A DNA stretch of 47,404 nt from the NCBI GenBank assembly GCA_016868915.1, contig VGFL01000008.1, positions 1 to 47,404 on the forward strand, given 5' to 3'. The notes below the pieces were generated by a model. The model was not told the origin of the DNA, made no database searches, and saw only the letters and a list, made by a program, of their open reading frames with translations. This document shows, piece by piece, positions 6,607-47,097 of the stretch. The first letter of the stretch is position 1. Every line of letters starts with the position of its first letter. This DNA comes from Bacteroidota bacterium. Lineage in GTDB: Bacteria > Bacteroidota > Bacteroidia > Flavobacteriales_D > Crocinitomicaceae. A program made the translations under genes and the position numbers.

Positions 6607-7104
6607 CTAAAAGAAATTTCGAACTCTAGTACCCATTCCTTGTTCAACCAATTCCCATTTGGGAGATTCCAATCGGATTTCAACCATTTGACAAGTTGAT
6701 AAAAGTATACCTGTCTGTGTAATGTATGAAGCTAAATCACTTATCCCATTATTGTGGCCTATCACTAATAATTTATTTATTTTTTCAGATACTTGCTGTA
6801 TTTCAGATAAAATTAGTTCCTTTTCGGTCAGATACAAAGAGTCGCAAAATATAAAATCAATGCGCTTCAAATCAAGTAAATCCAAAGTCTGCCTTGTTCG
6901 TACAGATGTGCTACAAAGCACTAAATCAAACTGAAATTCAGAAGAAAAATTGGTAGTGAAATTGGTTACTTTTTGTTTGCCAAGACTATTTAATTCTCTC
7001 TGAAAATCATTTTGTCCAGAAATAATATTTTCTGCATCTGAATGTCTTAAAAAAAAGACTGTCTTATGGCTGAAATTGTTTTGTGTTACTCGCTCGTTGT
7101 CCAT
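6607..7104 (-). CDS. SixA-like histidine phosphatase family protein
   Basis: A 165-residue protein with the histidine-phosphatase core. The N-terminal LRHSDAEN places the phospho-accepting His21 in the RHG-type motif (here RHS). DLVLCSTSVRTRQT supplies the second Arg, and VIGHNNGISDLA supplies the second catalytic His. This short form resembles SixA, which in E. coli dephosphorylates phosphohistidine proteins, but other small-molecule or phosphoprotein substrates are possible. Its ATG lies 41 bases inside the 3' end of the preceding YwqK-repeat gene. It is therefore the last gene of an overlapping LysE/YwqK/SixA operon. Confidence 0.8.
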   Translation of the reverse strand: MDNERVTQNNFSHKTVFFLRHSDAENIISGQNDFQRELNSLGKQKVTNFTTNFSSEFQFDLVLCSTSVRTRQTLDLLDLKRIDFIFCDSLYLTEKELILSEIQQVSEKINKLLVIGHNNGISDLASYITQTGILLSTCQMVEIRLESPKWELVEQGMGTRVRNFF

Positions 7105-13041: not shown

Positions 13042-14172
13042 ATGACATTCAAAGAACTCGATCTTTTAGAGCCGATCTTAAAAGCTCTTGAAATTAAAGG
13101 ATATTCCACCCCAACACCTATTCAACAACAAGCCATTCCAATTATCCTTTCAGGATCAGATATTATGGGTTGCGCACAAACGGGAACCGGAAAAACAGCC
13201 GCATTTGCCATCCCAATTCTTCAAAACTTGTACAAAACACAAAAGAACGAAGGACGTAGAAAAATTCGATCGTTAATATTGACTCCAACCCGCGAATTGG
13301 CTATTCAGATTGAAGAAAACATCAAAGATTATGGAAGCCAATTGAATCTGCGTCACGCAGTGATTTTTGGCGGAGTAAATCAAACCAATCAAATTAATCG
13401 CTTGAAAAGTGGAATTGATATTCTGGTTGCAACACCGGGTCGTTTGCTCGATTTACAACAACAAGGCTATATCGATTTAAGAAGCTTGGAAGTCTTTGTG
13501 TTAGACGAAGCAGATCGCATGCTAGACATGGGGTTCATACATGACGTGAAGAAAGTACTTAAACTCATTCCGGCAAAAAGGCAAACTTTGTTTTTTTCAG
13601 CCACCATGCCCAAGGAAATTAAAACGCTTGCCAGTACGATGCTAACAAATCCAAAGCAAGTTGTTGTTACTCCCGTCTCCTCAACCGCTGAAAAAATTGA
13701 ACAAGAACTCTTTCATGTGGTAACAGCAAAGAAAAAGGACTTACTCCTCCATATTCTAGGCGAAAAAGCTATAAATTTTGTATTGATCTTTACGAGAACC
13801 AAACATGGAGCGGATCGCGTGGTGAAAATTCTTTCGCGTGCAAACATTAAAGCCGCAGCAATACATGGAAATAAATCTCAAAACGCACGGCAAAATGCGT
13901 TAAACAATTTTAAAAATAGGACAATACAGGTATTAGTTGCCACCGATATTGCAGCCCGCGGAATTGATATTGACGAATTGGAATTGGTAATTAATTACGA
14001 CATTCCAAACATTCCTGAAACGTATGTTCACCGAATTGGTAGAACCGGTCGCGCAGGTGCAAGTGGAAAAGCACTTTCATTCTGTGATGTGGAAGAACAT
14101 CCTTATATCAGAGGTATAGAAAAGCTAATCGGCTTGCGAATCAAGGAAGTGAAAAATCATCCGTTTGGTTGA
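13042..14172 (+). CDS. DEAD-box ATP-dependent RNA helicase (RhlE-like core)
   Basis: A 376-residue helicase comprising little more than the two RecA-like domains. In order: Q motif [14 protein letters not shown] (Gln28), Walker A AQTGTGKT (Lys51), motif Ia [12 protein letters not shown] at residues 155-158, SAT in FFSATMPKE, the ARGIDID motif and [10 protein letters not shown]. It unwinds short RNA duplexes, typically in ribosome assembly or mRNA turnover, in the cytoplasm. Most Bacteroidota relatives carry a basic C-terminal tail; this one stops soon after the core, so it may depend on partners for RNA affinity. It is monocistronic, with a -7 element at 12980. Confidence 0.92.
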
Positions 14173-14623
14173 TTGAGTCTATGGACCATTGTTATTTGAA
14201 AAACTGAACTTATTACTTTTCAGTACCCAATTGACAAACCAAAAAATACTTACCGAATAATCCACCGTAATATTTTTGTCCAAAATCACCAAACGCACTA
14301 GTTGTTGAATAGGAATTATTGGCAACATATCCCCCGTATTCCATTCCCACGTGTAAAAACCTAGTTATAGCCCACTGTGCACCCATCGAAAAACCAAATT
14401 TAGCATAAGAATAGGTTCCTCCAGAGGTATATTTATAATCTCCCTGGGATGCAGAAATTACATAGTCTTTTGAGATTTTACGACCAATACCTACACTGAT
14501 ACTTGGCACAACATATCCTTTAAGCGCTTTATTTCGATACACATAAAACAATGGCTCGAAGCCAAGATCAGCCAGTATCGTTTTCTTAGCATTTCGATAA
14601 ATATCCTGATTAACCTGGCTTTC

Positions 14624-14626
14624 CTA
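14624..14626 (-). other. Premature TAG nonsense codon
   Basis: The TAG sits between the Asp of NANYD and the Glu of ESQVNQ. It is one substitution from sense codons such as AAG, GAG, CAG, TAT, TAC or TGG. TAG is used as an ordinary stop elsewhere in this window, for example at the end of the TraB/GumN gene and the EI24 gene, so codon reassignment does not explain it. Confidence 0.75.
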
Positions 14627-15337
14627 GTCATAGTTGGCATTCAAACCAATTCTAGCAGGAAACCTGAGCGCATATTTCGAAGAAATTTCTTTTTGAACAA
14701 AAAAATCAAAATTTGGATTTGAGGCAAAAAACAAATCAGGTTTACCCTGAAACACAAAATTTGGATTTATAAAAGAACTTAAATTAATGCCCATACTATA
14801 CTGCCTATTTTTTTTCAAAGAGGAAGGCTTTGGACTTTTTTCAATCTCAATCTTGGTTGGCTTTTTCTTCTTCTTTTTGAGTAAACGAATTTTCAAGCCC
14901 CCCATTGGAAAGTATTCACCATCAAAATAGAGAAGAGCTGCTTCGAGCGAAAAAGCATACCCTTTCGTGCTCAGAAATTGAATGCCAACTGGCACATAAC
15001 CAATTGGAGTTCCACCATCGTCAATGTATAAACCAGCACCGAAAGCAGCGCCGACATACGGTGAGAATCTTTGTAATTTATCCTTTTCACCAATATAATA
15101 GCGCCCTTCGACATAGACTGAACCGATAACTAAAAGTGTCCCAAAACCTGTTTCAACACTCCAATTTTGATTGAAAAAATGTTCATAATAAGCGCCAAAA
15201 AAACTTGGGCCACCTAAACTATATCCAAAATGATTTTTATGAATTAGGCGTAAATTCTTAGGTGCAGAAGTATCTGATTGAGCGAATGAGAAATATGTCC
15301 ACAAGAATAAAACGGAAACAATCAATCGCAGTACCAT
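14624..15337 (-). CDS. Surviving N-terminal part of the interrupted barrel protein (237 aa)
   Basis: This is the portion still translatable before the premature TAG. It has signal peptide residues 1-19, an Opa/OmpA-like barrel region with GFGTLLVIGSVYVEGRYYIG and FSPYVGAAFGAGLYIDDGG, the polylysine linker LLKKKKKKPTK, and the first strands of a second barrel segment. Without the downstream 137 residues the last barrel strands are missing, so it is unlikely to insert normally in the outer membrane. Confidence 0.55.
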   Translation of the reverse strand: MVLRLIVSVLFLWTYFSFAQSDTSAPKNLRLIHKNHFGYSLGGPSFFGAYYEHFFNQNWSVETGFGTLLVIGSVYVEGRYYIGEKDKLQRFSPYVGAAFGAGLYIDDGGTPIGYVPVGIQFLSTKGYAFSLEAALLYFDGEYFPMGGLKIRLLKKKKKKPTKIEIEKSPKPSSLKKNRQYSMGINLSSFINPNFVFQGKPDLFFASNPNFDFFVQKEISSKYALRFPARIGLNANYD

Positions 15338-15355
15338 TTAAAAGAATTTTACAGA

Positions 15356-15363
15356 CAAAAATA
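15356..15363 (-). promoter_or_regulatory. Bacteroidota -7 element TATTTTTG before the interrupted barrel gene
   Basis: It matches TAnnTTTG, 18 bases before the ATG at 15337, in the 40-base gap after miaA. It appears intact. No TTG at the usual distance. Confidence 0.4.
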
Positions 15364-15377
15364 ATTAAAATTTAAAA

Positions 15378-16286
15378 TCAATTTGTTAGGTTTATTTTAT
15401 TTTTAACTAAATTCAAAAAATCAACTTCCTTGGAAATTAAAGTTCCTTGATTGTGTGATTTAAACCACGTGATTTGACGTTTCGCATAATTTCGAGAATG
15501 TTGCTTTATTAAATCTATTGCGCTTTCTCTACTGATTTTTCCATCAAAAAAATCGAATAACTCGCGATAGCCTACCGTTTGTAAAGACTTTAAATGTTTC
15601 AACTTAAAAACTGAACGAGCCTCGTTTTCCAAACCTAACTCAAGCATGTGATCAACCCGGTCATTAATTCGCTTGTACAATTCTTCTCGGGGTAAATCTG
15701 TAGTGAAATAAAAAACGGTATCAAAGCCAGTCTTGGCATTCCCAGATCTCAATTCAGTCAGTGTTTTACCGGAAAGCCGAATAGCCTCAATAGCTCGAAT
15801 AACACGAAGTGGATTTTCTTTGTCAATTAGTTGGAAATAATCAGGATCTTTGTTTTTCAACTCTTCTAGAAATGCAGTTAATCCGTTTGATTTCCATTCT
15901 TCTGTAAGTTGATTTTGAAGGTTTAAATCGTGTGGAATTGCATCCAACCCTTCGCAAAGCGCTTGAATGAAAAGTCCTGAACCGCCAACGATTAGTATAT
16001 ATTCTAAATGAGATAGTTCCTTTAGAATCAATTCTCTGGCCTCAGTCGCAAAACAAGCTGCCGAAACCTCATCTTCCAGCGTATGCGAATCAATAAAATA
16101 ATGCGTTACGCCAGCCATTTCTTCCACGGTCGGTTTAGCGGTACCTATTGAAATCTCTCTGTAAAACTGCCGTGAATCTGCTGAAATCACCACCGTATTC
16201 AGGTATTTTGCGAGTTCTATAGCAATTTTTGTCTTTCCGCTAGCAGTTGGACCCTGAATTACAATGAGGCTGGGTTCTTTTTTCAT
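15378..16286 (-). CDS. miaA: tRNA dimethylallyltransferase
   Basis: A 302-residue enzyme that adds a dimethylallyl group to A37 of tRNAs reading codons that begin with U. Landmarks: P-loop VIQGPTASGKTKIAIELAK, SADSRQFYREISIGTAKPT (the DSRQ-YR tRNA/substrate loop), HYFIDSHTLEDEVSAACF and the C-terminal SLQTVGYRELFDFFDG and RNYAKRQITWFK blocks. I start at the ATG at 16286, which shares a base with the mltF stop (TAATG), typical of coupled translation. A longer frame to 16307 would lie inside mltF. It forms an operon with mltF. Confidence 0.95.
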   Translation of the reverse strand: MKKEPSLIVIQGPTASGKTKIAIELAKYLNTVVISADSRQFYREISIGTAKPTVEEMAGVTHYFIDSHTLEDEVSAACFATEARELILKELSHLEYILIVGGSGLFIQALCEGLDAIPHDLNLQNQLTEEWKSNGLTAFLEELKNKDPDYFQLIDKENPLRVIRAIEAIRLSGKTLTELRSGNAKTGFDTVFYFTTDLPREELYKRINDRVDHMLELGLENEARSVFKLKHLKSLQTVGYRELFDFFDGKISRESAIDLIKQHSRNYAKRQITWFKSHNQGTLISKEVDFLNLVKNKINLTN

Positions 16287-17704
16287 TACTGAAGCTGCTC
16301 CTTCCACTTCAAGTATTGGTTATAGATTGAATTTGCATAATCCGTTGCATGTCCACGGTAAGCCCCGCACTGAACAGCGTTGTCACGATAAAAAGAAGGG
16401 TTGGAAAGATTTCGAATCATTAACTCAACATTACCTTTCCATACGTATGGATTCATCTCATTTTTACCAGCTAATTTCATAGCATCATCAATATGACAAT
16501 ATCCGGCATTATAGGCAGCAAGGGCAAATTTGATTTGATCCTCGCGACTTGGAACACGCTCATAACGCTTCAAAAGTTCTTTCATCATTTTCATCCCCCC
16601 TTCAATTTGAACTTCAGGACTTGAGTCAGGATAAACCCCATATTGAGGGCCTGAAATTGGCATAAATTGCATCATTCCATAAGCACCCCCAAGTCCTATT
16701 ACATAAGGATTAAATCTACTCTCTTTATTCGCAATAGCAGCCAATAGTATCCAATCTTCACCGTATTTTTTCGCAGATGATTTGAATAAATGATCGAACG
16801 ATGATATTTGACCATTTTTTAACATCTCTTGCTCAATCGGTAATGATTCTTGAGGTTGAATTTCAACTCCAAAATAACGCTTCGCTAACTCTGCATACTC
16901 TTTGGATTTTAGAAAATTTTTCAACCAATTATCCAGAGCAGCCTTCAACTGTGGACTCGTTTTTCTTATGCCGAAAGCAATAGATTGTGTAAAAGAAATG
17001 ACTGTGGAAATATCCAAATTAGAGTTGCCTTTACTTACTACTTTAGCAATATTTTCATCGACAACAGTCAACGGAATGGATCCGTTCGCTACAGCTAAAA
17101 CGTAATCTTCTGGGGCTGGGTCACCCTCAATCTCTTTCACATAAATCGTATCTCCTATTTCTTGTTGCAAATTCACTATCCGTTGGTAATAAGAAGAATT
17201 ATTTCGAACATACACTGTCCGATTTTTGAGCATTAAAGGATCACTAATTAATTGTTTATTTATTTCATCTGGAGTCATTTCCTCCCAGCCATTTGGCTTC
17301 TGTTGCACAAGTACTTGCTTGCTTTTCAAATATGGGATTGAAAAATCATGAATTTTTCTTCTACTTCGAGTGACTGAATAATTACATGCGATTATGTCTC
17401 CTTCCCCATCATTTAAGTAACGAAAGAATTTTTTCGTATCTGAAATTACTTTAACTTTTAACTGCACGCCAATATGTTCTGAAAAACGCTTTAATAACTC
17501 ATATTCATAGCCTTGTTCATTTTCCCGAAAAATATAATAGGATGTTGAAGTATTCTCTGTGAGCATAGTTAATACGCCCTTTTCTTTTATTTGTGCGAGA
17601 TCAATCTTAGTCGAAATAAGCTCGGGAACTGATCTACTTGAGCAAGCTAAAAGAATTGAAATTCCTAGCGCAAAAATAAAATAACTAAATTTACGTGTTT
17701 CCAA
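16286..17704 (-). CDS. mltF: Membrane-bound lytic murein transglycosylase F (MltF-like)
   Basis: A 472-residue protein with the MltF architecture. A signal peptide (FSYFIFALGISILLAC) has a lipobox Cys at 21. A periplasmic solute-binding (SBP_bac_3) domain covers about 40-270, with RENEQGYEYELLKRFSEHIGV. A C-terminal lysozyme-like SLT domain covers about 305-450, with catalytic Glu328 in ANKESRF, followed by GAYGMMQFMP and AAYNAG. It cleaves peptidoglycan glycan strands with formation of anhydromuramic acid, anchored in a membrane facing the periplasm. No ATG is available before the signal peptide; the start is TTG at 17704. Its stop overlaps the miaA start. Confidence 0.9.
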   Translation of the reverse strand: METRKFSYFIFALGISILLACSSRSVPELISTKIDLAQIKEKGVLTMLTENTSTSYYIFRENEQGYEYELLKRFSEHIGVQLKVKVISDTKKFFRYLNDGEGDIIACNYSVTRSRRKIHDFSIPYLKSKQVLVQQKPNGWEEMTPDEINKQLISDPLMLKNRTVYVRNNSSYYQRIVNLQQEIGDTIYVKEIEGDPAPEDYVLAVANGSIPLTVVDENIAKVVSKGNSNLDISTVISFTQSIAFGIRKTSPQLKAALDNWLKNFLKSKEYAELAKRYFGVEIQPQESLPIEQEMLKNGQISSFDHLFKSSAKKYGEDWILLAAIANKESRFNPYVIGLGGAYGMMQFMPISGPQYGVYPDSSPEVQIEGGMKMMKELLKRYERVPSREDQIKFALAAYNAGYCHIDDAMKLAGKNEMNPYVWKGNVELMIRNLSNPSFYRDNAVQCGAYRGHATDYANSIYNQYLKWKEQLQ

Positions 17705-24196: not shown

Positions 24197-25741
24197 TTAT
24201 TTCGAACTTAATTCAATATACGGAATGAGTAGTTCATCCAATGAAATTCCCCCGTGCTGAAAAGTATTTTGATAATAATTGACAAACTGATTGTAATTAT
24301 TCGGATAAACAAAGTAATCATTATCACCTGCAAAAACAAATTCAGCAGATATCTTTTGTTTCGGTAAAAATACGTCTTGTGGGTTTTTTACCACATAAAC
24401 TTCTTTTGTATTGTATGATAAACCACGTCCTACCTTATAACGAAGATTTGTATTTGTTGTTTTCTCACCAATTATCCGAATTGGATTGGAAACTTTTACG
24501 GTCCCATGATCGGTTGTAATAATAAGCTTCATCTTACTATCAGCAATTTTTTTAACAATTTCAAATAAAGGAGAATGCTGAAACCAAGACATGGTAAGTG
24601 ATCTGTAGGCCGCTTCGTCTGAAGCCAATTCTTTAATCATTTCCATCTCTGTTCTCGCATGAGATAGCATGTCAACAAAATTATAAACGATAAAACTTAC
24701 ATCATTTTCCTTCAATTTTGAGAATTGGTCATTCAATTTCTTTCCTGCTTCAAGATTTGTAATTTTATTGTATGACCATTTTACTTGTTTGCCCAATCTT
24801 TTAAGATTTGCCTCTAAAAAATCAGCTTCATGAAGATTTTTCCCCCCATCGTCATCCTCATTTTTCCATAGATTTGGAAAGCGCCTCTCTATCTCTGAGG
24901 GCATTAATCCGGCAAAAAAAGCATTTCGTGCATAGTGAGTTGCAGTCGGTAAAATCGAGAAGATCACCTCTTCTTTTTCAACTTTAAAATACTTTGAGAA
25001 TTCTGGTTCTAAAATTTTCCACTGATCGAATCGTAAGTTATCAATTACCAGAACAACAGTTTTTTGTTTTCCGATAAATGGAGAAATATTTTCTTTTAAA
25101 ATAGTATGAATCATTTTTGGAGCATCCTCTCCACCTTTCAACCAATCTTCGTAATTATTTTCAACATATCTGCAAAATAACTGGTTGGCCTCCTTTCGTT
25201 GCATTTCTAAAATTTCGCGCATCGCGATATTATTTGATTTTTCTAATTCTAAATCCCAATAAATCAATTTAGTAAAAAGTTCAACCCATTCCGAATGAGA
25301 TAATCTTCCAGCCATTAGCTGGCCAATTTGACGAAAATCTTGTTGGTATGCAGATGACGTTCGTTGAGAAACTAATTTCGAACTATCGAGATTTTTCTTG
25401 ATGCTTGATAATATTTGTTTTGGATTAACCGGTTTTATAAGATAATCAGAAATTTTGCTGCCAATAGCTTCCTCCATTATGTGTTCCTCTTCACTCTTTG
25501 TTATCATTACAATTGGAATCAAGGGACGAATTTCTTTTATTTTTACCAAGGCATCCAGACCTGATACACCAGGCATATTTTCATCTAAAAATATTATGTC
25601 AAAATCTTCTTCAAGACATGCATCAATAGCATCTCCACCTGACTTTACTGTTTTGACAAGATATCCTTTTTCCTCTAAAAATATTACGTGGGGTTTCAAC
25701 AAATCAATTTCGTCATCTGCCCAAAGGATTGTGCCTTGCAT
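24197..25741 (-). CDS. porX: Type IX secretion response regulator PorX (receiver plus PglZ domain)
   Basis: A 514-residue protein. Residues 1-120 are a receiver domain: acidic pair D9/D10, phosphorylation site Asp53 in FLDENMPG, switch Thr and Lys in MITKSEEE, and YLIKPVNP. A helical linker follows. From about 215 to the end is an alkaline-phosphatase-fold PglZ domain with VVLVIDNLRFDQW, PTATHYARNAFFAGLMP, IVYNFVDMLSHAR and LIITTDHGTVKV, carrying the expected metal-binding Asp/His residues. In Porphyromonas PorX controls T9SS gene expression with the kinase PorY and contacts the secretion motor. It starts with ATG only about 20 bases from the divergent HD-domain gene's promoter. Confidence 0.92.
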   Translation of the reverse strand: MQGTILWADDEIDLLKPHVIFLEEKGYLVKTVKSGGDAIDACLEEDFDIIFLDENMPGVSGLDALVKIKEIRPLIPIVMITKSEEEHIMEEAIGSKISDYLIKPVNPKQILSSIKKNLDSSKLVSQRTSSAYQQDFRQIGQLMAGRLSHSEWVELFTKLIYWDLELEKSNNIAMREILEMQRKEANQLFCRYVENNYEDWLKGGEDAPKMIHTILKENISPFIGKQKTVVLVIDNLRFDQWKILEPEFSKYFKVEKEEVIFSILPTATHYARNAFFAGLMPSEIERRFPNLWKNEDDDGGKNLHEADFLEANLKRLGKQVKWSYNKITNLEAGKKLNDQFSKLKENDVSFIVYNFVDMLSHARTEMEMIKELASDEAAYRSLTMSWFQHSPLFEIVKKIADSKMKLIITTDHGTVKVSNPIRIIGEKTTNTNLRYKVGRGLSYNTKEVYVVKNPQDVFLPKQKISAEFVFAGDNDYFVYPNNYNQFVNYYQNTFQHGGISLDELLIPYIELSSK

Positions 25742-28507: not shown

Positions 28508-29026
28508 CTACCATTCAAATGCCTCAGGGAGCATCCACTTGCCTTGAACTCGTAGCGTTTGCTCAATAATATCTCTAACACAACCTTTTCCTCCACCGAA
28601 AGGCGACTGATAATCAACAATTTGTTTAATATCTGAAACCGCATCTTGCGGGCAACAAGGTAATCCTACTTGCTTTAAAAGAGGGTAATCGGGTATATCG
28701 TCCCCCATATACATAATTTCAATATCATTTAAAGAATATCTTGTTTTAATATCCTCGTAAATAGTCATTTTTTTCGATGATCGCATATGCACCTCTGTAA
28801 ACCCTAATCCGAATAATCTTACCTCGACGTCCTTTGAATTACCTCCTGTTATTGCGAATAACTTGTATCCCAATTTAGAGGCATATTGAACAGCATAAGC
28901 ATCTTTGGAATTAAACGTTCGTACCACGTCATCATTATACAACAAAACATTCCCATCCGTAAAAACACCATCGACATCGAATATAAAAGTTGTGATAGTA
29001 TTCAGTTTTTCCTTATAACTGATCAT
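28508..29026 (-). CDS. kdsC: 3-deoxy-D-manno-octulosonate 8-phosphate phosphatase (HAD, KdsC-type)
   Basis: A 172-residue HAD phosphatase. FIFDVDGVFTDG carries the DxD nucleophile pair; later come LFAITGGNSKDVEVR, VHMRSSKKM with the Lys, and IMYMGDDIPDYPLLKQVGLPCCPQDAV with the metal Asp pair, the KdsC signature. It removes phosphate from Kdo-8-phosphate in LPS synthesis, in the cytoplasm. The ATG at 29026 overlaps the end of the DUF2520 gene by 14 bases; the longer frame begins with TTG, so I reject that start. The pairing with a DUF2520 gene is common in Bacteroidota. Confidence 0.88.
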   Translation of the reverse strand: MISYKEKLNTITTFIFDVDGVFTDGNVLLYNDDVVRTFNSKDAYAVQYASKLGYKLFAITGGNSKDVEVRLFGLGFTEVHMRSSKKMTIYEDIKTRYSLNDIEIMYMGDDIPDYPLLKQVGLPCCPQDAVSDIKQIVDYQSPFGGGKGCVRDIIEQTLRVQGKWMLPEAFEW

Positions 29027-29777
29027 GATCAAATGTTTTTAATAAATTGTTTGTCATTAATTTATAAATTTCACGTTCGTCTCCCTGAAGTAAATTCAAG
29101 TGACTTTTTATGGTTGCTAAATCGTTTCTTGCGGCCGGGCCTGTTTGAGCTTCTTCTGGAGTGATATCTTTAAGTTTGGCAAATGTTTCTTCAATTAACG
29201 CTGCAAAGAGTTGCGGATCGATATCCTTCTGTCGAGCTAATTTCTGACCAAGATAAATTAAATGGTTGCTGAAATTATTGATGAAAACTGCCGAAAGATG
29301 AATATACTTTCGTTTTTCAGAATCACAGTACTCTACCTGATCGCTTATCTTATTTCCTAGTTCTTTTAAAAAATCTGAAACGCTAGAGGATTTAGACTCT
29401 ATCAAAATGGGATACCTGAGTGTGTTTTCCTTTCTCGCTTTTGAAAAAGTTTGCAATGGATAAAAAACTCCACAATTGGAATGAGAAATTTCAGTAAGCG
29501 AAAGTGATCCAGCAGTATATGCTACTATCTTTTGATTATCAATTTGTTCAACAACATTTTTAGTAACGGAATCAGGTAAACAAACCAATACAAATTCACC
29601 GCTAATTTTAGCAATATCTTCAATACGTGCAGACCATTTTTGAGCTAACTCAGAAGCTTGCCGTTTATTTCGCCCTACGAGAGAAACAATATGAAAACCT
29701 TCAGCAAAAAGTCGTTGTCCAAGAATTTCAGCCACATTCCCAGTTCCAATAATAGTAATTGTTGGAGGGAAATTCAT
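29013..29777 (-). CDS. DUF2520 Rossmann-fold protein (ProC/6PGDH-like)
   Basis: A 254-residue protein. The N-terminal NAD(P)-binding fold starts with ITIIGTGNVAEILGQRLFAEG. It then has VSLVGRNKRQASELAQKW, a LVCLPDSV strand and a FYPLQTFSK segment; the C-terminal DUF2520 part is helical, with SAVFINNFSNHLIYLGQ and a closing TGPAARND motif. It looks like an oxidoreductase related to pyrroline-5-carboxylate and ketopantoate reductases. Substrate unknown. The ATG at 29777 follows the secA stop by 4 bases. A longer frame to 29861 would lie inside secA and adds no conserved sequence. It forms an operon with secA and kdsC. Confidence 0.82.
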   Translation of the reverse strand: MNFPPTITIIGTGNVAEILGQRLFAEGFHIVSLVGRNKRQASELAQKWSARIEDIAKISGEFVLVCLPDSVTKNVVEQIDNQKIVAYTAGSLSLTEISHSNCGVFYPLQTFSKARKENTLRYPILIESKSSSVSDFLKELGNKISDQVEYCDSEKRKYIHLSAVFINNFSNHLIYLGQKLARQKDIDPQLFAALIEETFAKLKDITPEEAQTGPAARNDLATIKSHLNLLQGDEREIYKLMTNNLLKTFDHDQL

Positions 29778-41872: not shown

Positions 41873-43162
41873 TTAAATCCCCTCTTTTTGCTCAGGTGTA
41901 TATGATTTTCCATCAAGGTTTAATCTGAGGGTGAAACGAAGCGTATTTGCTAAAGGACTCTGTCTTCCGCTAATTGAGGCTAAATAAGAAAAATCTATTC
42001 CAAACATATTGTACTTGAAACTTGCCCCAAGATTAATGTATTGGCGATTTCCTTTATTTCTATTTTCGTAAAAAAGCCCCCCCCTAATGGCTAAAACATC
42101 ATTATACCACCATTCTACGCCTCCTGCAATATTTATTTCTGTTAATTCCTCTATAAATTTCGAGCCTTTTTTAACCTCAAAAGAACCATCCGCATTTTGA
42201 ATATATTGCCCATCCTCATTCATTATCGGTGCTCCAGGGGCATCGTAAAAAGATTGAAGCATTCCGGAAATTACACCTACATCACTTGACTTTCCAGAAA
42301 TCATCATGTACGTCCCATCTATGATATCGTAATATGCAGGGGTGGGAACTAACAGTTTTTGAAGATCCAAAGCAAAAGTTACTGTATTATATTTATCAAA
42401 TTCTGCTTTAACTGCATTTCCAATTTTTAGATTCATAGGGATAAAATCTCTCTGAGATAATTGAGAGTACGCAACTTTATTGCCAATATTATTGATTGTA
42501 GTTGCCAATGTATATGATCCTTTTGTTTTACCAATTTTAGCATCTTCATTAAAATAGGTAAAGGAAAGATCTGTCCCACCAACTATTCCGGCTTTGGTAT
42601 TTACACCACCAACGGTTAAACCACCCGTCAAATTTGAATAGGCAAACTTCCCATTTAGTCCAATACTAAATTTGTCAGAAAGTCTGAATGCGTAGGCCCC
42701 TGTGATTTCAAATTCACTTGGCTTATCGTCGCGGATGACATTTCCAGAGGCATCGGTAAACGTAATCTCACCCAAACTAAAAAAACGTAAAGCCCCCCCA
42801 ACTGAATGTAAGCGACTTACCTTATAATAAAAAGATAAATAGGATAAATGGATGTCATTTGTTAGTTGTCTCAACCATGGAGTGTAGGATAAACTCAACT
42901 CAGACTTTTCTTTTGAGAATGAAATCATTGAGGTATTCCAGTAAACCGACGTTGAAGATGGACTCAAAGCTGTTCCGGCATCACCCATACCTCCTGCCCG
43001 TGAATCAGGCGTAATTGCCATAAAGGGCAATGCAGTGGTTATGGTGTTTAATTGCAAATCCCCTTGATTTGCGCCGTTATCGCCTGTTGGCTGAGCAAAA
43101 CAAAATTGTGATAAAATTAAACAAAAAATAGAAATTGTTTTTTTTGTCATTTGATAAAACAT
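41873..43162 (-). CDS. porV: Type IX secretion outer-membrane protein PorV
   Basis: A 429-residue outer-membrane barrel of the PorV/LptO family. After a signal peptide (ending FCFAQPTG) comes the family signature ALPFMAITPDSRAGGMGDAGTALSPSSTSVYWN. The following strands include SELSLSYTPWLRQLTNDIHLSYLSFYYKV, GISGMLQSFYDAPGAP and a closing aromatic strand LRFTLRLNLDGKSY. In the T9SS, PorV receives substrates from the Sov translocon and delivers them to the PorU sortase. An ATG four codons later (43150) could equally be the start. porU lies 43 bases upstream, ispF directly downstream. Confidence 0.93.
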   Translation of the reverse strand: MFYQMTKKTISIFCLILSQFCFAQPTGDNGANQGDLQLNTITTALPFMAITPDSRAGGMGDAGTALSPSSTSVYWNTSMISFSKEKSELSLSYTPWLRQLTNDIHLSYLSFYYKVSRLHSVGGALRFFSLGEITFTDASGNVIRDDKPSEFEITGAYAFRLSDKFSIGLNGKFAYSNLTGGLTVGGVNTKAGIVGGTDLSFTYFNEDAKIGKTKGSYTLATTINNIGNKVAYSQLSQRDFIPMNLKIGNAVKAEFDKYNTVTFALDLQKLLVPTPAYYDIIDGTYMMISGKSSDVGVISGMLQSFYDAPGAPIMNEDGQYIQNADGSFEVKKGSKFIEELTEINIAGGVEWWYNDVLAIRGGLFYENRNKGNRQYINLGASFKYNMFGIDFSYLASISGRQSPLANTLRFTLRLNLDGKSYTPEQKEGI

Positions 43163-43205
43163 AGAACAATGTAAATATACGCAAAAGTGCTACTTATATT
43201 TTAAT

Positions 43206-46200
43206 TTATTTTAATAAAACTAATTTTTCTGTCTTTTCAGCAACCTGTCCATCGGGATTTTTGACTTTCAGGGAATAAATATAAACCCCCTTACCCAACT
43301 GATCTCCATAATCATCTCTCCCATCCCACATGATTCCTTGGTTTCTGAATCCAACAGTACTTACACTTTCATTAATTGTTTTAACCAACTTACCAGAAAT
43401 TGCAAAAATTTGAATCTGTACATCCAAACTACTACAAGATTGATTATGTTCAAACATAAATTCTGTCGATGTTGTAAATGGATTTGGATAATTGTACACG
43501 TGAGATAAAATTGGATTTTCCTTTTCGTAAACCATAAATTCACATTTTACAGTGGAAGAGTTGTTATTGACATCCCATGCCTTCACCTCCAATGTATGAA
43601 GCCCAGGTTCCAATAAACTCATTTGATAACGAATTTGACCTGATTGATATGAATCCAAATCACCCGTATAAAAATCATTTAAAACAATGGGGTCCGCAGT
43701 TTTATCATCTATAATTGCTGTAATATCATGGCCTATTCCATTTCCAACAGTATTTATCCCATTTTCATCAAATGCCTTAATGATAAGAACTGGTGTTTCA
43801 TCCGTAACGCTTCCACTAATAAAATTCTCGTCATTCAAATATAATTCTAACTCAGGCCCTTCATTGTCTACAAGTCCATTCGGATTTATCCCTCCAATTC
43901 TAAAGTTTGTATCGAAACCAAATGCGTCTGTTGCACTGTTCAATGCATAGTAACTTATTTTTCCCTTTCCAATATTCAAGGCAATATCTTTTGGCACCAC
44001 GAATGAAAAATCGAAATACCCATTGGTAATACTTGTTTTACCCTTGTAAACAACATTGCGTTGCAACTCAAATTCTATTTCTTGTGAATCAGGATCTTGC
44101 CCCAATGTTTTCATAGTTTTGACCTTATCAAAAATAGAGGGGGTCAAAATACCATTAAAATTTGTTTGTATTGCGCCTAAATGATCCTCTATATGACCTT
44201 TTACTCGAACCTTACTCAAGGCATTCAACGTATCAATTTCAATCATAGGATTTACCCCATTAATGCTATCTGTTTTTATAAGAATCTTTGGTAAAGAAAT
44301 TTTTAATGCCGGGTCTCCAATTAAAGTAAAACTTCGCTTATTGTCGCTTTGTAAAGCATCGTTTTTTGTTCGCATCATAATTTCACCAAATGTTAGAGGC
44401 GAATTATCGCTATTCCTATCAAAAACATTTTCAAAAAGTGCACTGCCCACTGAAGAATTTACACTAAAATAAACGGATCGAGTTGTGGTCATGAGAGCAA
44501 TTGCGCCACCGTATGGATTTAGCGAAACCCATTCACCAGCTGATACCCGCTTTGGATCGTCATACTTGGTGAATTCACAAGTCGCAGAAACAAAAAGAGT
44601 CAAGGCATTAATATTTGACCAACTGTTAATTTGAGGAATGGTCACAACGCGTTCCTCAGCAAGTCCAACCTCCCCGCCATGACCTACATAATTTACAAGT
44701 AAGGCCCCTCTTTGAATTCGGTCTGTAATTGCATTGTATACATCCGGGTATCGCTGACCTCCAGCCGTAGTTTGTTGAGGAAAAGCATCTAAATATAATT
44801 TATCACAATTCATTTCAAAATTATTGGTTAAAACTTCTTCGCACTGATTTTCAGTATCATTTACGATAAAATAATTATTTTCCTCATCATCTGCTATCTG
44901 TACATATTTTAATTTCCAGTCGCCGAAAGTTGAATTTACATTTGATTCTAAACAACAAGAAGTATTATTTGAATTGAAAAGCTGAGAACCATTTTTCATG
45001 TAATGTTCTATTTTATCGACTTGTTGCTGTGCTTGTGTTATATCAGATGCAAGTATTCTACCTATTCCGATATCTAACAAATCAATACTGGAAAATGCCT
45101 CGTTGTCGTCGAGCATTCCGAAAAAATCATCTGAAACGTAACAAGAAATATAATTTTCACTATTATCCGCCTGATAGGTTACAATCATATTGTTATTGTT
45201 GGCAAGTCGATTTTTTGGATCATACGTTCCATCTCCAAAAAGTAATAAATATTTCAAATCACTACCTGGATTTGTTAACGCCCTGTCGTGAAACATTTTT
45301 GCTAACATTCTTATTGCCACGGCATCTTGAGCTCCTGAACTAAATTCATTGTATACTTGTTCGGTTGTCACGACATGTGTTGTAGTTCCTTCAGCCCGAT
45401 GCAAGTCTGCTAGTCGATTAGCTTGACCAATAAAACTCGGGTGTGTTACAATTAAAAATTCTACCTGCTCCAATCCGTGAAGATTCTGGTATGATACAGA
45501 TCCAATCTTTTCGGGAGTATAAAAAGAAGACCCATTTGAAGCAACATATTCGATGTAAGATGAATTTGCTTTAAATTTAAACGTATTATTTTCAATGTTA
45601 CCCGTTACTTTTTTTGGAGCGTTTCGATCACTCAAATCCCATACAAAGCCCAAAGAAGGAAAGTTTGATATGTTATATTCGCTGATAGCATTTGGTTGAA
45701 TTTGTAAAATATTCCTAAAGTTCAATTGGGTTCCATAGAATGTTAATTTTCGCCTTGCATTTAATATCAATCTATCAAGATAAGTCAAGATAGATGGATT
45801 TGAACGAGAAACTGTAAGTTTTAGAGGGATATTCGGAACTTCAGACTCAAATGTAAAATTTGTTTCAATCCGGGTGTAGTCTCCTTGATAGATGAGATTT
45901 GAATTAAAAATCGGGGAACCATTTACCGAAAATGTTTGGCTATTGCCTGGTCCATTAACAGCAAGGGAGCTAGAAATTTTTATCGGAAAAGTATCAATAT
46001 TTGGAATTGAAAAATTGAATACCCTTTCCAATTCAACGTCAAATAATTCCCCATACCAACGTTTACCTCCACCGACTAAATTTACCAGATCATTTTCATA
46101 AATATCACGAAAATCATAACTCGAAACTGACAATACTGCAGGTTCAGATACTTCCGGTAAATTTTGGATACGAGAAGGGGTATTATTAGGGTCAATATTA

Positions 46201-47051
46201 ATAAAATAATAGGATAAATCTGAATATACATTCGTAGCTCTAAGAAATTCAGTGCCGTTTTTGAGACTCCATTTGTGGGGACCCCAACCATAAAATAAAA
46301 TGTAATCATCTGAATTAAATATACCATCACTTTCTCCCTTGATAAAAATTGCATTTTTTGCAAGATCATCAATTCTGGGTAAGGAATTTTTTTCTGGCAA
46401 CATGCCTTCGCCATTTCCATAAATGTTTATAAAATTCGGATTTAAATTGGCCGTATTTATACCGCAACTTTCTAAAAAATCCTTATCTATTTTAAAAATT
46501 CCATCTCGGTCAACAGCTATTTTGAACCAGACTCCCGAACCTTCTTTTAAAACGGAGTTGTCAACAAAATCTTTTTCAATATTTGTAATGTAGGAGTCCT
46601 CGATTAATTCCTCCAATTCAAATTCGAGAGATACAATTTTAAGGAATTCATTGTTTTTTTTAAAATAGGGCTTAACGTCAACAACGGTGAAGTAATCTTT
46701 TCTAACTCTTGTTACTTGGTGTAAAATTTGAGGCTCTTCAGGGATATTCGGAATAAATTCGTTTAAATAAATAATTTCTTGTTTAGATGCTTCCTCTGTC
46801 CTGAAAGAAATAAGTTTTAAATTTTTCGCTGAATTTATTTTTTCTTTCCAGAAAAAACTTGGTTCTCTATCATTAATTGTTTGATTTTTTATCGAAGGAA
46901 CTAATATTTCCCTTCCCTCAAAAAAATAAGGCTTTGGATCTTCATGAGGAATCTCAAGCCGAATAATTTTCTGAGAAAGTAAATTTTGATTTAAACAGAA
47001 AACAATATTGAAAAATCCAAAAAGGAAAATACTTTTATTTTTTTCTAACAT
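43206..47051 (-). CDS. porU: Type IX secretion sortase PorU
   Basis: A 1281-residue C25 (gingipain-family) cysteine protease. An N-terminal signal sequence and prodomain lead to SGVWFKIAVDRDGIFKID. In the catalytic domain NYVGHGGE gives the catalytic His (residue 791 with this start), and LFVSATCEF gives the Cys (825). LTFGEIMMRTKNDAL and LIGDPALKISLP close the caspase-like domain. The C-terminus has a T9SS-type sorting domain ending GVYIYSLKVKNPDGQVAEKTEKLVLL. PorU cuts the C-terminal domains of secreted proteins and attaches them to anionic LPS. The ATG at 47051 is chosen because TATTTTTG lies just upstream; the longer start at 47078 would be ahead of the promoter. Confidence 0.93.
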   Translation of the reverse strand: MLEKNKSIFLFGFFNIVFCLNQNLLSQKIIRLEIPHEDPKPYFFEGREILVPSIKNQTINDREPSFFWKEKINSAKNLKLISFRTEEASKQEIIYLNEFIPNIPEEPQILHQVTRVRKDYFTVVDVKPYFKKNNEFLKIVSLEFELEELIEDSYITNIEKDFVDNSVLKEGSGVWFKIAVDRDGIFKIDKDFLESCGINTANLNPNFINIYGNGEGMLPEKNSLPRIDDLAKNAIFIKGESDGIFNSDDYILFYGWGPHKWSLKNGTEFLRATNVYSDLSYYFINIDPNNTPSRIQNLPEVSEPAVLSVSSYDFRDIYENDLVNLVGGGKRWYGELFDVELERVFNFSIPNIDTFPIKISSSLAVNGPGNSQTFSVNGSPIFNSNLIYQGDYTRIETNFTFESEVPNIPLKLTVSRSNPSILTYLDRLILNARRKLTFYGTQLNFRNILQIQPNAISEYNISNFPSLGFVWDLSDRNAPKKVTGNIENNTFKFKANSSYIEYVASNGSSFYTPEKIGSVSYQNLHGLEQVEFLIVTHPSFIGQANRLADLHRAEGTTTHVVTTEQVYNEFSSGAQDAVAIRMLAKMFHDRALTNPGSDLKYLLLFGDGTYDPKNRLANNNNMIVTYQADNSENYISCYVSDDFFGMLDDNEAFSSIDLLDIGIGRILASDITQAQQQVDKIEHYMKNGSQLFNSNNTSCCLESNVNSTFGDWKLKYVQIADDEENNYFIVNDTENQCEEVLTNNFEMNCDKLYLDAFPQQTTAGGQRYPDVYNAITDRIQRGALLVNYVGHGGEVGLAEERVVTIPQINSWSNINALTLFVSATCEFTKYDDPKRVSAGEWVSLNPYGGAIALMTTTRSVYFSVNSSVGSALFENVFDRNSDNSPLTFGEIMMRTKNDALQSDNKRSFTLIGDPALKISLPKILIKTDSINGVNPMIEIDTLNALSKVRVKGHIEDHLGAIQTNFNGILTPSIFDKVKTMKTLGQDPDSQEIEFELQRNVVYKGKTSITNGYFDFSFVVPKDIALNIGKGKISYYALNSATDAFGFDTNFRIGGINPNGLVDNEGPELELYLNDENFISGSVTDETPVLIIKAFDENGINTVGNGIGHDITAIIDDKTADPIVLNDFYTGDLDSYQSGQIRYQMSLLEPGLHTLEVKAWDVNNNSSTVKCEFMVYEKENPILSHVYNYPNPFTTSTEFMFEHNQSCSSLDVQIQIFAISGKLVKTINESVSTVGFRNQGIMWDGRDDYGDQLGKGVYIYSLKVKNPDGQVAEKTEKLVLLK

Positions 47052-47058
47052 TATTTCG

Positions 47059-47066
47059 CAAAAATA
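47059..47066 (-). promoter_or_regulatory. Bacteroidota -7 element TATTTTTG for porU
   Basis: It matches TAnnTTTG and ends 7 bases before the porU ATG at 47051, predicting a near-leaderless message and excluding the upstream ATG at 47078. No TTG at the usual -33 distance. Confidence 0.45.
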
Positions 47067-47097
47067 TTTCTTTAACATACACGAACGAAAAAAAAAA

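Follow-up and report, generated by a model that had tools for sequence, protein, structure and literature searches.

A single in-frame TAG interrupts a gene for a putative surface protein in a bacterium of the Crocinitomicaceae (GenBank assembly GCA_016868915.1, contig VGFL01000008.1), and the question raised by this locus is what the stop represents: a recent nonsense mutation, an assembly error, a switch, a codon that is read through, or the border between two genes. The window, i.e. the whole stretch of DNA analysed (47,404 nucleotides), contained a minus-strand frame which ran from an ATG at 15337 to a TAA at 14213 and comprised 237 codons, the lone TAG at 14624-14626 and, in translation, a further 136 codons; retranslation confirmed these coordinates, which the preliminary description had given for one frame with one stop. 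The first start listed downstream of the TAG was a TTG at 14551, 24 codons on, with an ORF of 112 aa. The broken frame was more than a product of chance, since both sides of the TAG aligned in-frame to one uninterrupted gene of a sister species, and homology to the relatives covered the 24 codons between the TAG and the TTG, which had earlier been described as protein-like. The features of the region were:

13042 to 14172, plus strand: DEAD-box RNA helicase, the convergent neighbour.
14213 to 14623, minus strand: frame after the TAG (136 codons and TAA), remainder of the second domain, dN/dS 0.244 against the sister G014.
14624 to 14626, minus strand: in-frame TAG; aligned codon TGG (G014, G108) or GTG (G070, G064).
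14627 to 15337, minus strand: open part before the TAG (237 aa), consisting of a leader that resembles a signal peptide by eye, the first domain, a linker rich in Lys and about the first 57 residues of the second domain.
14660 to 14809, minus strand: stretch of 50 codons just before the TAG, with low divergence from G014.
14858 to 15337, minus strand: N-terminal domain and leader, with relatives that stand alone in the genus.
15378 to 16307, minus strand: miaA (IPP transferase family), the upstream gene, ending 40 nt before the ATG at 15337.

The genome of the window (2.2 Mb, 128 contigs, 98.46% complete) was compared within a set of 86 genomes of the genus, its own included, with one genome per species and completeness down to 59%, for which reason absences in this set are partly uncertain. 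The sister species (G014; the contig L003 appears to be the same as its contig C64, with a 100% identical protein in a matching place) carried an uninterrupted orthologue of 371 aa adjoining the same DEAD-box helicase, with 78% identity before the TAG and 74% after it. Some match was found in 22 of the 86 genomes and the two-domain gene in five of them (many genomes being incomplete): the own genome (G000, one TAG), G014, G108, G070 and G064, the frame of the last being uninterrupted and cut at the contig end. The codons at the column of the stop were TAG in G000, TGG in G014 and G108, and GTG in G070 and G064. The stop was thus private to the window genome (1/5 two-domain genes, with sense codons in the other 4/4), and the residue at this column, as judged from the alignment, is not strictly conserved (Trp in 2/4, Val in 2/4). 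Full-length homologues of the kind that the preliminary description had named as support for a nonsense mutation (with Tyr, Lys, Gln, Glu or Trp at this site) were present, with Trp, in G014 and G108. In the sister contig L003, two direct repeats of 63 nt (199-261 and 1657-1719, 79% alike) flanked the intact gene; their translations resemble the tails of two genes related to each other.

Relatives of each domain were also found alone. The N-terminal domain stood alone in, e.g., G001, G007, G104 and G002, and at a second locus of the own genome (frames of 153-195 aa, fragments uncounted), and the C-terminal domain in open frames of 306-309 aa in G034, G093, G003 and G074. Where a stand-alone C-domain gene was read over its full length, in G034 and G003, it had an extra N-terminal part of about 100 residues. 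In view of these one-domain matches, the 374-codon frame is a two-domain fusion whose second domain is cut by the TAG. The split of the gene stands as first described; its two-domain make-up, and the position of the TAG in the second domain, had been missed. Stand-alone N-domain relatives (e.g. G001, G007 and G104) consist of the first domain, with a Lys-rich tail in G001 and G007, and so correspond to the complete part of the truncated product; they end at or before the linker, whereas the truncated product adds a piece of the second domain. The stand-alone N-domain relative at the second locus of the own genome (L002, 1501-1866) was stop-free and 41% identical.

This comparison also bears on the idea that the locus holds two separate genes, the downstream one starting from TTG 14551, where the 112-aa ORF was listed. 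The relatives, however, encode one continuous protein, homology spans the 24 codons from the TAG to the TTG, and the stand-alone C-domain genes of G034 and G003 do not begin at the equivalent place, because of their further N-terminal part of about 100 residues. Homologues ending at the position of the TAG and followed by a separate gene, a pattern that the preliminary description had also considered, gave way to continuous relatives with sense codons in 4/4. A separate downstream gene was ruled out by these continuous relatives and by the G034 and G003 starts, and its probability is negligible.

Selection was similar on the two sides of the stop. The NG86 dN/dS with respect to G014 was 0.240 over the 237 codons before the TAG and 0.244 over 125 codons after it. 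With G108 as the outgroup, the changes polarised to the window branch were 23 nonsynonymous and 15 synonymous before the TAG and 15 and 13 after it, and those polarised to the G014 branch were 23 and 16 before and 9 and 7 after (40 differences before and 22 after the TAG were not polarisable). In a codon likelihood model built for this analysis, in which the background ratios were shared, the post-TAG ratio of the window branch was somewhat raised (0.18 vs. 0.097 in the background, 2 x delta lnL = 3.85), and a post-TAG ratio of 1 was strongly rejected (delta lnL 13). When both sides were freed, both ratios were raised on the window branch (0.233 pre-TAG and 0.315 post-TAG); with all tip ratios free, a neutral post-TAG branch was weakly rejected, at low power (2 x delta lnL = 4.8), and splitting the pre- and post-TAG ratios on both tips gained 2 x delta lnL = 2.5 for two parameters. 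These tests, which are of small power, suggest no clear relaxation after the TAG, as a recent stop predicts.

The frame itself was also kept: no frameshift or second stop was found in the 136 post-TAG codons, while 5.4-8.5 new stops would be expected if this part had been neutral all along the branch. Zero further stops are compatible with a TAG age of up to approximately 0.35-0.55 of the branch. Both estimates take the branch to be 0.25-0.35 changes per site long, which is an assumption. Given the similar dN/dS on both sides and the kept frame, the TAG looks younger than the split from G014; on this sequence comparison, either it is probably younger than that split or the frame is still in use.

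An intact and constrained surrounding is also just what would be seen in a true, unbroken gene if the TAG were an error of base calling or of the assembly consensus, and the TAG comes from one assembly of 128 contigs. This explanation is the main rival to the nonsense mutation, though an unlikely one. Against it, no other clearly broken gene was noticed when the 34 ORFs with profile support in the 47-kb window were inspected (unsystematically with respect to orthologues; some window ORFs, e.g. 6607-7104 and 28508-29032, matched part of their best profile only). The TAG also fell where a real mutation would, in a gene with signs of decay in other species of the genus; errors would hit genes of any kind. 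We infer that the mutation is real.

The decay elsewhere took several forms. In G083, a C-domain remnant (L090, 4017-4262) of about 82 matching codons, with one in-frame TGA near its start, had a conserved gene upstream of it and the DEAD-box helicase on its other side; the helicase adjoining the gene in the window also adjoined it in G014 (83% identity) and adjoined this remnant in G083 (61%). The gene directly upstream of the remnant, which we take to be a sugar transferase, was 73% and 76% identical to the gene that comes before the one-domain form in G001 and G007, respectively. By its sequence context, the remnant thus appears to have decayed separately at a locus common to these genomes, where it takes the place of the gene of G001 and G007. 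The gene of G104 was 93% identical in DNA to that of G108 until its end in the linker, a second domain was not found in G104 or G105 by the genus search, and the first domain of G105 was frameshifted. Because of the G083 remnant, the second domain not found in G104 and G105, the G105 frameshift and the presence of the two-domain gene in 5/86 genomes, the gene is considered dispensable and patchily held in the genus.

The N-domain tree comprised 18 rows cut by hand from the matches (G105, in two pieces, G093:C89, G085:C68 and G064:C175 were left out), and in it all five fusions grouped with the one-domain genes of G104, G001 and G007 in a clade of eight (100/99). By unweighted parsimony, the fusion label changed twice on this tree; the two changes are read as two gains, and a single fusion followed by later losses counts as three changes. 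One fusion with several losses was nevertheless preferred in our judgement, because the G083 remnant shows decay at the shared locus.

The 50 codons at 14660-14809 had 5 nucleotide differences with respect to G014, out of 185 across the 362 shared codons, and 0 of 5000 shuffles gave a value as low. Silent sites were also quiet in this stretch, which for that reason suggests either a recombination tract or a strongly constrained segment with a constraint as yet unseen. An overlapping antisense gene was rejected as the cause, there being stops in all three plus-strand frames of 14630-14860.

This tract suggests that alleles may pass between lineages, and together with the patchiness of the family it could speak for a switchable surface-protein allele, in which the TAG would be reversed or replaced by a local mechanism. 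The sequence around the stop offered no such mechanism: the only inverted pair in 13900-15700 was short and imperfect and did not enclose the TAG (14836-14851 / 15164-15179), none of the four short two-copy direct repeat families in the same interval lay over the TAG (runs of 1-3 nt units being outside the search), and no second copy of the post-TAG part that might act as a donor was found in the own genome. The switchable allele put forward in the preliminary description was therefore left with neither enclosing repeats nor a donor copy, and a true switch is extremely improbable. An ordinary nonsense allele may simply be segregating, but this would be a variant of the nonsense-mutation reading and not a switch.

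Readthrough of the TAG at some rate, giving one-domain and two-domain forms, would also predict the nearly equal dN/dS before and after the stop, though this support is not decisive, since a recent mutation gives the same result. Belinky et al. (2021, PMC7918605) argue for readthrough at many in-frame stops of bacteria; they also report that such stops are widespread in bacterial genes and tend to be short-lived, with a time scale like that of population polymorphism, and this short persistence speaks against readthrough here. The stop was not conserved (TAG in 1/5 two-domain genes), and the genome encoded release factor 1, above the profile cut-off. Thirty-three tRNAs were found (Rfam; 150 of 182 candidates scored), with anticodons named by ARAGORN for 33/33, and none of the 33 had a CUA anticodon; a tRNA may have been missed, with 150/182 candidates scored and the genome 98.46% complete, and the set is probably incomplete, since none was named Ala, Phe or Ile. 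The RNA downstream of the TAG was no more strongly folded than shuffled sequences (z = -0.66). As for stop usage, the window's 34 profile-supported ORFs ended in TAA 23 times, in TGA 6 times and in TAG 5 times.

With release factor 1 present, no CUA tRNA found and TAG serving as an ordinary stop, genetic-code reassignment was rejected. Programmed readthrough or recoding likewise gave a negative result (TAG conserved in 0/4 two-domain relatives, no suppressor tRNA found and release factor 1 not lost). The earlier remark that readthrough had no visible signal was borne out by the release factor, the tRNAs found, the stop usage and the RNA fold, and readthrough is very unlikely.

The intact promoter claimed in the preliminary description was not established: just 40 nt separate the end of miaA from the ATG, and sigma-70-like matches were absent from the gene's strand in 14000-15600, all four lying on the other strand, with a consensus that may not be that of the host. 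Promoters of Bacteroidota differ from the sigma-70-like type. For the signal peptide and 3' end, also claimed to be intact, both ends of the gene were common to the G014 orthologue, and the leader is signal-peptide-like by eye. Three terminator-like hairpins were located within the gene on its own strand (14552-15007), one of them about 60 nt past the TAG; these are consensus matches only, and 1.0 were expected from shuffles (sd 1.0). Elsewhere in the window, porV and porU (type IX secretion) lay together at the end (41873-47078), and a PglZ/response-regulator gene at 24197-25741 presumably resembles porX.

The encoded product is a two-domain protein, probably of the outer membrane, for which a barrel is plausible; the beta-barrel character given to it in the preliminary description was not established, as there was no barrel match for the protein and the models were of low confidence. 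NCBIfam gave no match for the window protein or for the intact orthologue, and in Pfam the window pieces came closest to an unrelated family, below the cut-off (E 0.11). Possible likenesses to OMP_b-brl_2 (PF13568) are the leader and the Gly/aromatic-rich strand-like sequence (both by eye) and a weak match of the C domain (1 of 10 rows, E 0.0011; unrelated families reached comparable weak values of 0.0027 and 0.0045 in the same domain scans), but the window protein had no barrel match, nor did any of the 18 N-domain rows. AlphaFold models from 3- and 2-sequence inputs were of low confidence (pLDDT 28.5 and 43.6), the N-domain model (43.6) being all-beta with ten listed strands. Profile searches against the PDB gave nothing convincing for the N domain (4 matches with E 0.45-0.98, one of them OmpW) and 0 matches for the C domain.

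Taken from these sequence comparisons, the best explanation, with a probability of about 0.8, is that a dispensable gene of patchy occurrence has recently gained a nonsense substitution. Among the four explanations offered at the outset, the comparative data favour this one; the switch and readthrough left no sign. The gene is an accessory one with two domains, relatives of each also standing alone in other species of the genus, and its second domain would recently have gained the substitution. Translation would then end after 237 residues, with the first domain complete, the second cut at about 57 residues and the C-terminal end missing. The second domain would most likely be lost. As for the first, the cell may go on making it or may break down the incomplete product. 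All this looks like an ordinary gene-breaking mutation and no new mechanism. That the stop is kept as useful, through low-level readthrough that mixes one- and two-domain surface proteins or as a selected first step in a shedding of the second domain that recurs across the genus, is quite unlikely.

No paper was found in a literature search on pseudogenes in Crocinitomicaceae. The window TAG fits the pattern of short-lived in-frame stops described by Belinky et al. (2021, PMC7918605). As in the single-substitution pseudogenes treated there, a lone in-frame stop interrupts a gene that is intact in all other respects, and dN/dS is still below 1 on its flanks. The stops of their large-scale study were common to orthologues of at least two species, whereas the TAG was present in one genome only.

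The locus thus provides a clean nonsense event, for which the intact sister gene serves as a comparison, in a patchy family of two-domain surface proteins; by itself, it matters little. It also warns against taking similar dN/dS on the two sides of a stop, by itself, as a demonstration of readthrough. The second domain may be lost repeatedly in the genus, and the family would then be a possible small model for domain loss.
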